From the NCBI RefSeq assembly GCF_023073315.1, contig NZ_JADPJH010000022.1:679917-743916 (forward strand): DNA of 64,000 bases, read 5' to 3'. The position numbers were made by a program, and so were the translations under genes. The notes beneath the pieces are model-generated. The model was not told the DNA's origin, made no database searches, and worked only from the letters and a program-made list of their open reading frames with translations. Shown here piece by piece: positions 1,247 to 23,989 of the stretch. Each line of letters starts with the position of its first letter. Positions within the stretch are counted from its first letter, which is position 1. Source of the stretch: Bradyrhizobium sp. 1 (GTDB taxonomy: Bacteria; Pseudomonadota; Alphaproteobacteria; Rhizobiales; Xanthobacteraceae).

Positions 1247-2361
<1,115 letters not shown>

Positions 2362-19428: not shown

Positions 19429-20265
19429 ATGAATCGCAGGGACGCACTCACCACCGTCGCTCTCGCCGGCGCCGCGATGGCCGCGGCCGGTTCGGCGAAG
19501 GCCGACACCGCGCCGACGTCCACGCTCGACCGCATCAAGAAAAGCGGCCTGCTGCGGATCGCCGTCATCGCCGGCCAGGATCCCTATTTCCACAAGGACC
19601 TCACGACAAATCAATGGTCGGGCGCCTGCATCGACATGGCGAACGACATTGCCGGCAAGCTCGGCGCCAAGGTTGAGACGCTGGAATCGACCTGGGGCAA
19701 CCAGATCCTGGATCTTCAGGCCGAGAAGATCGATCTTGCCTTTGCGGTAAATCCAACGCCCGAGCGTTCGCTGGTCATCGACTTCTCCTCGCCCATTCTG
19801 GTGCACTCCTTCACCGTCATCACCAAGAAGGGTTTTGCCAAGCCACAGACCTGGGCGGAGATCAACAAGCCCGAGGTCAAGATCGCCGTCGACATCGGCT
19901 CCACGCATGAGACCATCGCGCGGCGCTATTGCCCGAAGGCGACGATCCTCGGCTTCAAAGAGCGAAACGAGGCGATCCTTGCCGTCTCCACCGGGCGCGC
20001 GGACTGCAATATATCGCTCGCCGTGCTTTCAGTCGCGACCTTGAAGAAGAATCCGACGCTCGGCGAGCTCGCGGTGCCCCGGCCGCTGCTCACGCTGCCG
20101 ACCAATCTCGGCATCCGTGCCGAAGGCGATCGCCGCTACAAGGATTTCCTCAGCGCCTGGGCCGACTACAACCGCGCGCTGGGCCAGACCCGCGAATGGA
20201 TGCTCAAGGCTTTTGAAACCATCGGCCTCAGCGCGGATGACATTCCGCCGGAGATCCAGTTCTGA
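19429..20265 (+). CDS. transporter substrate-binding protein, family 3 (amino-acid type)
   Basis: This 278-residue periplasmic protein has an N-terminal MNRRDALTTVALAGAAMAAA signal with an RR pair, possibly Tat, and an AKA-type cleavage site. The family-3 pattern is clear: LDRIKKSGLLRIAV, then DMANDIAGKLGAKVE, QAEKIDLAFAVNPTPERS and FSSPILVHSFTV. It usually binds polar amino acids or organic acids. There is no adjacent permease or ATPase, so it is an orphan. It is divergent from the 2-hydroxyacid dehydrogenase and could supply the amino-acid pathway in the neighbouring island. Confidence 0.92.
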   Translation: MNRRDALTTVALAGAAMAAAGSAKADTAPTSTLDRIKKSGLLRIAVIAGQDPYFHKDLTTNQWSGACIDMANDIAGKLGAKVETLESTWGNQILDLQAEKIDLAFAVNPTPERSLVIDFSSPILVHSFTVITKKGFAKPQTWAEINKPEVKIAVDIGSTHETIARRYCPKATILGFKERNEAILAVSTGRADCNISLAVLSVATLKKNPTLGELAVPRPLLTLPTNLGIRAEGDRRYKDFLSAWADYNRALGQTREWMLKAFETIGLSADDIPPEIQF

Positions 20266-20276
20266 CGGCCAGCCGG

Positions 20277-20359
20277 TGCAGCCATCATCCCCAACTCCGA
20301 GGAAGGCTGCGCGATTGCGCGGCCTGACTTCGTCTAGCGTTGTTTGGCGCATTGGCGTC
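20277..20359 (-). repeat. copy 1 of an 83-nt duplicated leader-like element
   Basis: Aligns without gaps to 22188-22270 (I count 69 of 83 identical). Read on the minus strand it has the conserved block ACAACGCTAGACGAAGTCAG, a hairpin (GGCCGCGC AATC GCGCAGCC), then TCGGAG and an ATGATG. In this copy no gene follows: the ATGATG runs antisense into the end of the binding-protein gene at 20265. Confidence 0.75.
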
Positions 20360-20416
20360 TAACACATTACAGATGCCAGCTTCGTATCCCACAGCGGACA
20401 TAGGCCAACGTCCATA

Positions 20417-21022
20417 TCAGACGGCACGTCGGGGAGCGGCGACCGGAAGCAATGGCCACGCCGTCATTGCAAGTTCTACAACGCGGCGAAGCTCGCCGAC
20501 AGTCGCGCCGGCTTGCGGTAAATTCATGATGGCTTGCAACACGCCGAGATAGTGCCACGCCAATCCCTCGATGTCGGTTGCCGCCAATTCTCCGCTTTCG
20601 ACCGCCTCGCGCAAAATCTCGCCGATGATCGCGCGCTGCCGCGTAAGTCCCTGCCGCGCGACCGACTGTCCCGCCAGAGGAAGATCGACCATCTCGGCAC
20701 AAGATCGGGCCAGCATGCACCCAGCGGGTCGTACCGTCTTGCCTCCCCTGGGCAGGAATTCGTGCATCAGCGCTTCGAGCTGTTGGCGCTTCGTGTCGCC
20801 GCGAACGGCGCTCATCCGCCTCACGACGCGCTCGACGTAAGTCGAAAGGACTTCCTGAAATAGCCCGTCCTTGTCTTGAAATCGCTTGTACATGCTGGAC
20901 CGCGACAACCCCATCGCGGTCGTCAATTGATCGATGGACGAGGCCGAATAGCCGTGACGCCAAAACACATCCATCGCGGCATTGATCACGGCATCGTCAT
21001 CGAATTGAGGTTTTCCGCTCAT
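20417..21022 (-). CDS. TetR/AcrR-family transcriptional regulator
   Basis: This 201-residue repressor starts MSGKPQFDDDAVINAAMDVF and has the TetR helix-turn-helix ASSIDQLTTAMGLSRSSMYK followed by RFQDKDGLFQEVL. The C-terminal domain resembles the YcdC/AcuR-type (GCMLARSCAEM, QRAIIGEILREAVESGEL). A longer frame exists upstream but would cross the divergent promoter and the neighbouring gene, so the ATG at 21022 (GGGA 6 nt before) was used; ATGs at 21040/21043 are alternatives. A perfect palindromic operator lies in its 79-nt divergent promoter region. Confidence 0.92.
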   Translation of the reverse strand: MSGKPQFDDDAVINAAMDVFWRHGYSASSIDQLTTAMGLSRSSMYKRFQDKDGLFQEVLSTYVERVVRRMSAVRGDTKRQQLEALMHEFLPRGGKTVRPAGCMLARSCAEMVDLPLAGQSVARQGLTRQRAIIGEILREAVESGELAATDIEGLAWHYLGVLQAIMNLPQAGATVGELRRVVELAMTAWPLLPVAAPRRAV

Positions 21023-21033
21023 GACATTCCCGC

Positions 21034-21063
21034 TTGACATCATGGAACGATCGTTCCAATTAT
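21034..21063 (+). promoter_or_regulatory. promoter of the NmrA-like gene with embedded TetR operator
   Basis: TTGACA (21034-21039) and AATTAT (21058-21063) are 18 nt apart. The perfect 16-bp palindrome TGGAACGATCGTTCCA (21043-21058) fills the spacer, so a bound repressor would block polymerase. A further half site, GATCGTTCCA, lies at 21072-21081. The regulator encoded at 20417-21022 is the obvious ligand. Confidence 0.7.
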
Positions 21064-21101
21064 CCTGAACTGATCGTTCCAAGATACGAAAGGTTGTCCA
21101 G

Positions 21102-21986
21102 ATGTTCAATCCCTCCGAGCCGGGAGCCGCCCGTCCACGCGTTGCGGTCGCCGGAGCCACAGGTCGCGTGGGCTCCGCCTTGATTTCGAAGCTGGTCACC
21201 GAACCGGTTGAGCTTGTGGCGTTGACCCGCGCGCCGGGCGCTGAACGCCTGCCGTCCGGGGTCTCCGTTGCGACGGTGGACTTCGATGCACGGTCAACTC
21301 TGGACGACGCGTTGCGCGGCGCTGACCGTTTGTTCCTCGCCCACGGCACGTCTCCCCGGCAGGTCGCCAATGAAATCGCGCTGATCGACGCAGCCGTGGC
21401 CGCCGGCGTCAGCCATATCGTCAAATTGTCCGTGTTGGGACCGCCGTCTCGGCTACATCCGTTTGACTGGCATATGCAAATCGAGGCGCATCTTGCGACC
21501 CGCGACGTAGGCTTTACGGTTTTGCGACCTTCGAGTTTCGTTGACATCCTGGCGCGGGCTGGCGCTCCAGTTGCCAACGACACATGGGGCGGGGCAGCGG
21601 GCGATGGATTGGTCAATCTGATCGACACACGCGATGTCGCAGATTCCGCGTTCGCCGTCCTTCTCGACGATGCGCACGTGACTTCTCAGCGCGCCTATCA
21701 CCTGACCGGGCCAACCGCGGTGAGCATGCCTGAGATAGCAGATGAACTGTCCGGATTGCTTGGCCGCACCGTCACATATCAGCGCCGAAGCCCTGCAGAG
21801 CAGCGTGAGAAGCTGCTCGCTTCGGGACTCAGCGAGTTTGTCGCCGACCTGCTGCTCGGTCTGGATCGAGCTTTCTACGAATCAGTGCTCGCCGAGACCA
21901 CATCAACCGTCCGCGCGTTGACCGGCCACGCTCCGCGCCCGGTAACCGATTGGCTAGGTGACAACATCTCGCTGTTTCGAAAATAG
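21102..21986 (+). CDS. NAD(P)-binding NmrA/SDR-a5-like protein
   Basis: This 294-residue protein has an N-terminal NAD(P) Rossmann site (VAVAGATGRVGSALISKL) and the atypical-SDR body of NmrA/quinone-oxidoreductase-like proteins (HIVKLSVLGPP, FTVLRPSSFVDIL, YHLTGPTAVSMPEIAD). It lacks the classical YxxxK pair in the usual place. Some relatives are NAD(P)H:quinone reductases (QOR2-type), others redox sensors. It is divergent from a TetR gene and has that regulator's likely operator in its promoter, so it is probably induced by a small electrophile or quinone. Confidence 0.85.
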   Translation: MFNPSEPGAARPRVAVAGATGRVGSALISKLVTEPVELVALTRAPGAERLPSGVSVATVDFDARSTLDDALRGADRLFLAHGTSPRQVANEIALIDAAVAAGVSHIVKLSVLGPPSRLHPFDWHMQIEAHLATRDVGFTVLRPSSFVDILARAGAPVANDTWGGAAGDGLVNLIDTRDVADSAFAVLLDDAHVTSQRAYHLTGPTAVSMPEIADELSGLLGRTVTYQRRSPAEQREKLLASGLSEFVADLLLGLDRAFYESVLAETTSTVRALTGHAPRPVTDWLGDNISLFRK

Positions 21987-22040
21987 CTCAAGCTCGGGCA
22001 GTGCATCATGGACTTCGAAGTGCGGTGAAACCGCCCGATT

Positions 22041-22199
22041 TCAGAACAAGGCGGTGTTGAAGGCCTGTCCGTAGATCATTGCGGCCACAAGTGAGACCAG
22101 CAGGCCCGCTCCCGAGAAGATCAACAGTACTTTCAGAGTTTCGACGTCAACGTCGATTCTCGTCGCGCGGGATATTGCCTTTGCCAATGCAACCATCAT
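22041..22199 (-). CDS. small single-pass membrane protein (52 residues), function unknown
   Basis: The protein starts MMVALAKAISRATRIDVDVE and ends with one clear transmembrane helix (VLLIFSGAGLLVSLVAAMIY) and a short tail. The ATG at 22199 was chosen because GGAG lies 6 nt upstream and both the ribosome site and the ATGATG are inside the duplicated 83-nt leader. A longer start at 22244 would add 15 residues translated from the leader. I do not recognise a family. The basic, amphipathic N-terminus and single helix suggest an inner-membrane small protein, perhaps stress-related. Confidence 0.6.
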   Translation of the reverse strand: MMVALAKAISRATRIDVDVETLKVLLIFSGAGLLVSLVAAMIYGQAFNTALF

Positions 22200-22270
22200 C
22201 GCCAGCTCCGAAGCAGGCCGCGCGGAGGCGCGACCTGACTTCATCTAGCGTTGTCTGGCGTATTCGCGTG
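22188..22270 (-). repeat. copy 2 of the 83-nt duplicated leader-like element
   Basis: Same orientation as the copy at 20277-20359. On the minus strand it has ACAACGCTAGATGAAGTCAG, a hairpin GGTCGCGC CTCC GCGCGGCC, then TCGGAG and ATGATG that starts the small membrane protein. Several differences from copy 1 fall in the loop or keep most base pairs, which supports a selected stem before the ribosome site. Confidence 0.75.
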
Positions 22271-22325
22271 TGAAGCAGGTTACAGGTAATCCTGCAAAAA
22301 CGCTTCATCTTAAGTCAGCCGCGCG

Positions 22326-23989
22326 TTAGTCCCGCGACACCCGCGGCGTCGAGGGCGTGACGTTCGCCGGCGTGTGGAAGTCGAGACGCGCGCGATTCTC
22401 CTCGCGCACGCCGCTATCGTCGCCAAACTCGACAAACTTTTGCGTCCCCTCGGCCCATTGCGGCCACGGCGTCGCCGGCGTACTCGGGTTTCCCGTGCGT
22501 GCGAAGGCGACGAGCGTGTCCATCATGCGCTCGGACAGCGCGCGGTCGAACTCGGTCCAGACCCGCGTGGTCCGGAACTTGTTGAAGGCGTCCTGGGTGC
22601 CGAACCAATAGGGCACGTCGGAGGTGTGATAGGCGCCGATCTTCTGGGGCTATCGAAGAATTCGACGTTGGCTGCGAACGGATGCACACGCGAGAACATG
22701 TACATGTAGAACGGCGCCTTGCCGGTTTTCGCCTGGGCTTCGGCCCAGTTGCGCGTGCCGATCTCCACCAGGCCCTCGCGCGCCGCTGTTAGGCCCATGG
22801 CCTTCGCCTCGCCGTCGGTCTTCGCTGGATAAAGCGCGAGGAAACGGTCGGCCTGGCCGCCATAAAGCTTTCGCGCAGCCGCGACGTAACCTTCCAGATT
22901 GACCGCCGTGCGCAGATCATTCGAGCTTTCGTCGCTGGTAAAACCCGCGACGGTCGCGACATCGTTCTGCTTGCCGGCGGCAAAAATGTTCGGAACGGTG
23001 TCGGGCAGGACGTAACCGTCGATATCGGGCGTGACCGCGATCGTGCCGGCACAGCCGAGCTGGCAATCCTTCTGGATCGCCAAAATCTTGTCGGCCTGGA
23101 TCTGCCGCATCTCGGCAAGCGACGCTGCACCGAGCGCCGATTGCACCTCGAGGCCGATCTTCTCGGCGGCGGGCAGCGCCGGGAATTTGAAGCGATTGTC
23201 GAACATGCTGAGACTCATCGCGAAGCCGCGATGAAACAGGCCCTTCGCCAGCGGGCTCGCCTCCAGCGCCGACACCGACATGGCGCCGGCCGACTGCCCG
23301 GTGATGGTGACGTTGTCGGGGTCGCCGCCGAAGGCCGCGATGTTGCGCTTGACCCATTGCAGCGCCGCGACCTGGTCCATCAGGCCGTAATTGCCGGAGG
23401 CACGGTGCGGCGATTCCGCGGTCAGCTCGGGATGGGCGAGATTGCCCAAAATGCCGACGCGGTAGTTGAAGCTAACGAAGATCGTACCTTTCTTCGCAAC
23501 GTTCTCGCCGTCATACACCGCCATGCCGCTGGAGCCGAGCGTAAAGCCGCCGCCATAGATCCAGACCACGACCGGCAGCTTCGCGCCCGCCTTCGCATCG
23601 GCGCTCGCCCAGATGTTCAGATAGAGGCAGTTCTCGCTAGTCGCCTCCTCACCAAAATAGTGATTGAGATTGTGCCGGCGCAGCACCTGGATGCACTCCG
23701 GTGCCAGCCGGTCAGCATGATAGGTTCCCTTCCACGCCTCGACCCTCTCGGGCGCGCGCCAGCGGAGATCGCCAAGCGGCGGCGCGGCGTAGGGGATGCC
23801 GAAATAGCCCTTTACGCCCGACGTCAATACCTTGCCCGAGACGGCGCCGGTATCGATGCTGACGGGATCTCCGGGAACGGGTGTCGCGACGATCTGCGCC
23901 GGCGCGGGCGAGGCCGCCAGCAAAGAGAAGATTGAGGCTATCGCAAGAACCGCGCGCGAAAGCACGCGCCCACTATCTGAAACGCTCAT
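22326..23989 (-). pseudogene. type-B carboxylesterase with a single-base frameshift
   Basis: The first part (to about residue 447) is a secreted carboxylesterase: signal peptide (VLAIASIFSLLAASPAPAQ), oxyanion loop YGGGF near 145 and the nucleophile Ser233 in TGQSAGAM. At the CCCC run (22646-22649 on the plus strand as GGGG) the frame breaks; adding one C restores DSPQKIGAYHTSDVPYWFG and the remainder to 22326. The catalytic His (GAYH) is after the break, so the protein as written would be inactive. It may be a true pseudogene or a sequencing error in a homopolymer. It lies after a second esterase and an MFS gene on the same strand. Confidence 0.85.

Follow-up and report, generated by a model that had tools for sequence, protein, structure and literature searches.

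Class II CRP-dependent promoters of the Escherichia coli type combine a palindromic operator, with TGTGA as its left half, with a –10 element at a fixed distance and do without a good –35. Among alphaproteobacteria, CgrA of Rhodospirillum centenum, a CRP homologue that responds to cGMP, has been footprinted on TGTGA-N6-TCACA (PMC4681086). Clr of Sinorhizobium meliloti is a rhizobial CRP-like activator working from class I and class II positions, with a different core motif, GTNNCNNNNGNNAC (PMC10127613). Another type of control is represented by the ROSE and fourU thermometers, in which a hairpin in the 5' UTR, near the ribosome site, pairs the Shine–Dalgarno sequence at low temperature.

We analyzed a locus in a 64,000-nt stretch of the Bradyrhizobium sp. 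1 genome (contig NZ_JADPJH010000022.1; hereafter the window, with positions counted from its first letter), for which a sequence-only reading had described a duplicated leader with a hairpin ahead of a ribosome site and proposed an RNA thermometer or other cis-regulatory RNA. We found that the leader repeat belongs to a small membrane-protein gene whose family is found across Bradyrhizobium, supplying its promoter and 5' untranslated region, and that the most conserved part of the repeat looks like a DNA promoter and, judged from the sequence, like a switch of transcription. The best explanation, to which we assign a probability of roughly 0.8, is that a CRP-driven class II promoter serves the small-gene family and that one of the two copies is a deletion scar. 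The box, its spacing, the ORF family and the deletion are read from the sequence itself, while the activator, the start site, the part played by the hairpin and the function of the protein are predictions. The repeat would then consist of an ordinary promoter type and a pseudogene remnant, attached to an uncharacterized small-protein family and, likely, to a CRP regulon, and the guess of a regulatory RNA gives way to a promoter model that can be tested.

When the copies were compared with each other, the repeat covered 87 nt with 82% identity, at 20272–20358 and 22183–22269, both on the minus strand, in agreement with the earlier claim of two same-orientation copies of about 83% identity. A search of the whole 8-Mb genome returned these two copies only (E = 1.1e-17 for the second copy and 0.06 for the next best match). 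The parts said to be shared were indeed present in both, namely a CTAGA-GAAGTCAG block, a stem rich in G+C and closed by a four-nucleotide loop, CGGAG and ATGATG. The homology ran beyond the 83 nt originally delimited, to around 20375 in copy 1, where the operator is degenerate, and to 22284 in copy 2, where it is intact. Read on the minus strand from 22284 to 22041, copy 2 consists of TGTAACCTGCTTCACA, N20, CTAGATG, the hairpin, GGAG, 6 nt and the ATG of a 52-aa ORF; copy 1 (from around 20375 to 20272, minus strand) follows the same layout with a degenerate operator and ends at codon 5 and part of codon 6. Between the copies lie the genes of a TetR-family regulator (20417–21022, minus strand), the C-terminal part of an open frame at 20417–21628 for which we chose the start ATG at 21022, and of an NmrA/NAD(P)-binding protein (21102–21986, plus strand). 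On the far side of copy 2, a carboxylesterase frame (22523–23989, minus strand) seems to run on in another frame at 22326–22616, pointing either to a frameshift close to 22640 or to an error in the sequence.

The putative CRP-type operator of copy 2, TGTAACCTGCTTCACA (22269–22284, minus strand), follows the consensus TGTGA-N6-TCACA with a perfect right half and with TGTAA, one letter off TGTGA, as its left half. The –10 element TAGATG (22242–22247, minus strand) has its first T 21 nt past the operator and carries a GC extension (GCTAGATG). With the T of the –10 placed at –12, the center of the palindrome falls at –41.5 from a predicted start, the class II position of CRP, and the geometry of operator and –10 puts this predicted transcription start (+1) at 22235 (minus strand). 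This predicted arrangement is that of galP1. The Shine–Dalgarno sequence GGAG (22206–22209, minus strand), located 6 nt ahead of the ATG, is conserved in the leader alignment. A scan for consensus sigma-70 promoters gave none at this site because no fitting –35 is present, and copy 2 resembles the class II promoters in this respect as well. As a candidate, a FixK2/FNR box, which has half-sites of the form TTGA-N6-TCAA, was rejected, as TGTAA and TCACA do not fit. For a promoter examined in B. japonicum, with a –10 of the GCTATA type, the GC extension has been shown to be important (PMC4842269).

In a leader alignment anchored at the ATG, the strongest conserved block among close orthologues was TGTAATCTGCTTCACA-N20-CTAGATG. 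Distant family members kept a palindrome (GGTGAGCCAGCTCACA, TGAGAGCTGGTTCACA, TGTGACTTGGTTCACA and similar) and a CTA at equal distance, while the remaining leader differed. Among 99 distinct members, taken from loci that we chose out of the searches rather than from all matches, the box was found upstream of 56 in its strict form and at a comparable position of 89 in its loose form, against 0 and 1 in reversed sequences and 1 and 1 in a control stretch 300–430 nt upstream of the same 99; a TGTAA-type operator together with a –10 was present in 65. In the genome of the window itself, TGTRA-N6-TCACA-N20-CTA matched seven times and its reversal never, and perfect palindromes numbered 19, with none in reverse. 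Across 25 genomes of the genus, own genome included, the strict pattern with N20 produced 142 matches and no reversed ones, compared with 8 matches and 1 reversed when the spacer was N24, the single alternative spacing used as a control. Sixteen genomes of other families contained 4 matches and 1 reversed.

Some observations count against a CRP-driven promoter, the empty sigma-70 scan among them. The left half-site in this clade is TGTAA, where class II CRP promoters have TGTGA, and both the regulator and its inducer stand at the level of candidates; several distant members have halves of the TGTGA type. The loose box was absent from 10 of the 99 members, among them L040, which is the best-scoring of the 99 and 56% identical to the window protein, yet lacks it. 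On the CRP-driven promoter model, an activator dimer of CRP type would most likely bind TGTAACCTGCTTCACA, centered at –41.5, and the bound activator would drive transcription from the adjacent –10 by the class II route. The 5' end of the mRNA would then lie near the hairpin, which probably shields that end or sets the ribosome site at a distance while leaving it exposed.

A candidate for the activator was sought among the 32 genomic matches to PF13545, 24 of them above the cut-off. We extracted the recognition helices of the matches above this Pfam cut-off, L161 yielding none, and among those obtained only two were of the R-E type: AARESVNRQL in L159 and MTRESINKQL in L153, the latter with K in the last place of the R-E-x-x-x-R pattern. 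L159 contains cNMP_binding and HTH_Crp_2 domains, and its nearest solved structure is 7PZA, that of Clr from S. meliloti (E = 9e-28). The main Crp cluster has the helix motif RE(T/M)VGR (PMC10127613), and Clr has RPKVNR where L159 has RESVNR. We infer that the best activator candidate in the genome is the cNMP-binding protein L159, with recognition helix RESVNR, and that it may pair with the operator. The operator type is that of the CgrA regulon (PMC4681086), whose target genes differ from those here.

The genes next to perfect palindromes likely form a candidate CRP regulon in Bradyrhizobium. Those palindromes that we inspected lie near two genes for caspase-domain (PF00656) proteins, a DUF2147 gene, a relative of haemolysin III and genes for small membrane or exported proteins. 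The two caspase-domain proteins, whose N-termini look exported, are located behind perfect TGTGA-N6-TCACA palindromes at L197 (from around 1764, plus strand) and L198 (minus strand). At L191 (minus strand), another ORF, of 58 aa and with a hydrophobic stretch, follows a CRP-type box with N20-CTA spacing.

The gene headed by copy 2 (22041–22199, minus strand; ATG at 22199–22197) encodes a 52-aa protein, MMVALAKAISRATRIDVDVETLKVLLIFSGAGLLVSLVAAMIYGQAFNTALF, with homologues and a hydrophobic span, so the sequence-only reading was correct in placing a small membrane protein there. Its proposal that the leader belongs to a small-gene family held as well, as the ORF was present in 9 of the 10 genomes matching the leader. 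A protein search found relatives of the window protein in 17 of 60 genomes, own included, and gave no match in the 24 genomes taken from other families within the order; an orthologue used as query found homologues (E up to 0.01) in 113 of 265 same-genus genomes. A 19-residue stretch with a mean hydropathy of at least 1.6 was present in all 99 members, and the sequences suggest an N-terminal amphipathic part with Lys and Arg, followed by one membrane span. No Pfam or NCBIfam model matched the window protein or a close orthologue, and a distant member had two such matches, both below the curated cut-off. The members thus appear to form a genus-wide family of uncharacterized single-span inner-membrane proteins of about 50 aa. 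Among the literature matches listed, the titles and abstract openings, a partial coverage that is no proof of absence, describe neither the family nor a TGTGA-N6-TCACA regulon of Bradyrhizobium. This draws attention to a protein family present in 113 of the 265 Bradyrhizobium genomes searched, and the small protein and its CRP link merit bench work. As a candidate, a mobile or phage gene was set aside, a sequence search having found no relative of the small gene in viral contigs or plasmids. Two further loci deserve mention: L029 (G013) has TGTAATCTGCTTCACA-N20-CTA and leader remains near 1501–1545 with no small ORF found in that genome, probably another orphan promoter, and L175, from a record titled Frankia sp. 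RB7, is 85% identical to the window over 2.5 kb and likely mislabelled or contaminated.

The hairpin of copy 2 (22210–22242, minus strand) has an inner stem joining 22228–22235 with 22216–22223 around a loop at 22224–22227 and a basal stem GAAG/CUUC. The stem had been said to keep pairing although its bases change, and the two copies contradict this: they show no compensated change, and one pair is broken in copy 1. In copy 2, GGTCGCGC and GCGCGGCC form all eight pairs, one of them U–G, and in copy 1, GGCCGCGC and GCGCAGCC form seven, with a C–A mismatch in place of the U–G. Folded as 83 nt each, copy 2 differed from shuffles at z = –4.05 and copy 1, at z = –0.67, was no better than they were. 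Across the family, a hairpin of at least seven pairs stood ahead of the ribosome site in the best fold of all 60 aligned close leaders and, among 34 other, distant members, in 21 of the 24 with a box, where the sequence is unrelated and the mean z is –0.71; both are lenient counts with no shuffle control. The 5' UTR from the predicted +1 is 36 nt in the close clade versus a median of 25.5 in distant members, and the hairpin sequence and the longer 5' UTR are special to the close clade.

These recurrent hairpins, the fold of copy 2 and the basal-stem covariation and arm pairing described below favor a regulatory RNA (thermometer, riboswitch or protein-binding hairpin) controlling translation of the small gene, possibly on top of the promoter, a reading that we nevertheless consider unlikely. 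Of the proposed cis-regulatory RNA of a small-gene family, the link to the family and the recurrence of the hairpin stood, but the most widely conserved element proved to be the CRP-type operator with its –10, shared even with distant members whose leaders otherwise differ. Folded from the predicted +1, the 60 close leaders behaved like shuffles (mean z 0.07), and starting 7 nt further upstream gave a mean z of –0.90. RNAalifold did not recover the hairpin from the leaders (covariation term 0.02). Rfam gave no match at gathering scores and none at E up to 1 for 20200–22400. The thermometer in particular was not borne out by the folding model: in the 59 of 60 leaders that have a GGAG, folded from the predicted +1, this motif had an average probability of being unpaired of 0.46 at 20 °C against 0.48 at 45 °C, whereas ROSE and fourU elements, which likewise place a hairpin near the ribosome site, pair the Shine–Dalgarno sequence in the cold. 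The unpaired probability of the AUG rose from 0.30 to 0.41 over the same range in the model. An attenuator was rejected as a candidate, the terminator scan having none at the hairpin.

For covariation, we used 60 of 65 leaders (58 distinct), leaving out L108, L110 and L057 by choice and dropping two exact duplicates. Under a 12-pair model, 86.9% of 685 cells were paired, against at most 50.8% when the model was slid; double changes were confined to three pairs, and pair 26–39 was unpaired in 40 of 57 leaders, which speaks against the regulatory RNA. Pair 18–47 was G–C in 25 leaders, C–G in 12, U–G in 3 and A–U in 2, and its switch required at least three changes on the tree. As a null, we ran 300 simulations with composition and rate set column by column, on the tree, which was built from 201 columns and in which 6 of the 57 inner branches are starred. 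The basal stem exceeded this null in pairing (90.5% versus 78.9%, reached in 7 of 300) and in double changes (19 cells versus 3.9, reached in 3 of 300), while the inner stem did not (pairing reached in 94 and double changes in 55 of the 300). Own arms paired better than swapped arms (–4.56 versus –3.78 kcal/mol, P = 0.00015), in a test that ignores relatedness and in which L086 and L070 were dropped and L028 and L039 kept with a wrongly cut 3' arm; 18 nonredundant leaders gave P = 0.00085, and a paired test based on the tree yielded few independent contrasts, namely four. On this modest evidence, the stem is probably kept in the close clade, in a role other than that of a thermometer.

Significant covariation is largely limited to a single basal pair. 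Its position, upstream of the predicted +1, counts against the class II model and favors either an earlier start or a DNA role of the inverted repeat. We see a rather slim chance that, in the close clade, a stem has arisen right at the CRP-driven start and that its inverted repeat serves two purposes, as a DNA element from the –10 to the start and as an RNA element in the 5' end of the transcript; if true, such a repeat would couple the choice of start site to translation of the small protein. Slimmer still are the prospects of the inverted repeat over the –10 and start region being the DNA site of a second transcription factor. The covarying basal arm does overlap the DNA that separates the –10 from the predicted +1, but lineages differ in their half-site letters and still mostly preserve the pairing, an uncommon pattern for a protein operator, and leader lengths vary. 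That the leader encodes an N-terminal extension is hardly credible: although the frame upstream, of 67 aa from 22244, is open in many orthologues, the distance from CTA to ATG ignores the frame (39, 15 and 11 of 65 in the three phases) and the upstream ATG sits inside the –10.

Returning to the CRP-driven promoter with a deletion scar, copy 1 (20272–20375, minus strand) appears to be what is left of another copy of the small gene, now in decay. It has lost the TCACA of its operator and one stem pair, and it retains the –10 CTAGACG (20331–20337), the hairpin (20305–20324), ATGATG, and codons 1–5 with part of codon 6. The rest of the coding sequence has been deleted, and this copy was rightly said to have lost its gene. 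The description of this copy as antisense to the binding-protein gene was right in its convergent orientation; the copy is not inside that gene, however, and begins 6 nt past its stop codon. The gene, encoding an SBP_bac_3 solute-binding protein (19429–20265, plus strand), stands without the permease and ATPase genes found behind it in G158 (L084), where the gene order runs from the binding protein through an ABC permease, an ABC ATPase and the small gene (minus strand) to TetR/NmrA. In the window, the stop at 20263–20265 is followed by 6 nt and then by sequence matching L084 from 2140, so that around 1.6 kb present in L084 is missing, comprising the permease, the ATPase and the bulk of the small gene. 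Set beside L084 and L129, the window has its junction at 20263–20271 (plus strand), where 6 nt separate the stop from what remains of codon 6. G158 and G137 both have a whole family ORF at this place, and in L174 and L181 the distance between the small gene and the binding-protein gene is likewise around 1.6 kb. The permease orthologue seems gone, since the nearest relative found for it in the rest of the genome is just 53% identical.

A deletion of around 1.6 kb has removed the ABC permease and ATPase genes and nearly all of the second small-gene copy, and the decaying promoter and first codons have stayed just behind the binding-protein gene. The transporter to which this gene belonged is probably dead here, and the visible deletion explains the orphan binding-protein gene. 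The direct orientation of the copies around the 1.9-kb TetR/NmrA segment might suggest that TetR and NmrA form a mobile cassette with the copies as its terminal or target-site repeats, but this is scarcely plausible, as both copies head a small gene, G137 has a family ORF at both places, G158 has one at the place of copy 1 beside the same TetR/NmrA block, and L174 and L181 carry the gene near the binding-protein gene with no TetR/NmrA match in their flanks. In G137 (L129), the two family ORFs are 1.9 kb apart with TetR/NmrA between them, and an MFS gene replaces the permease and ATPase genes. The ORF at the copy 1 place of L129 has ATA at its start codon (2154–2156, minus strand), where its relatives have ATG.
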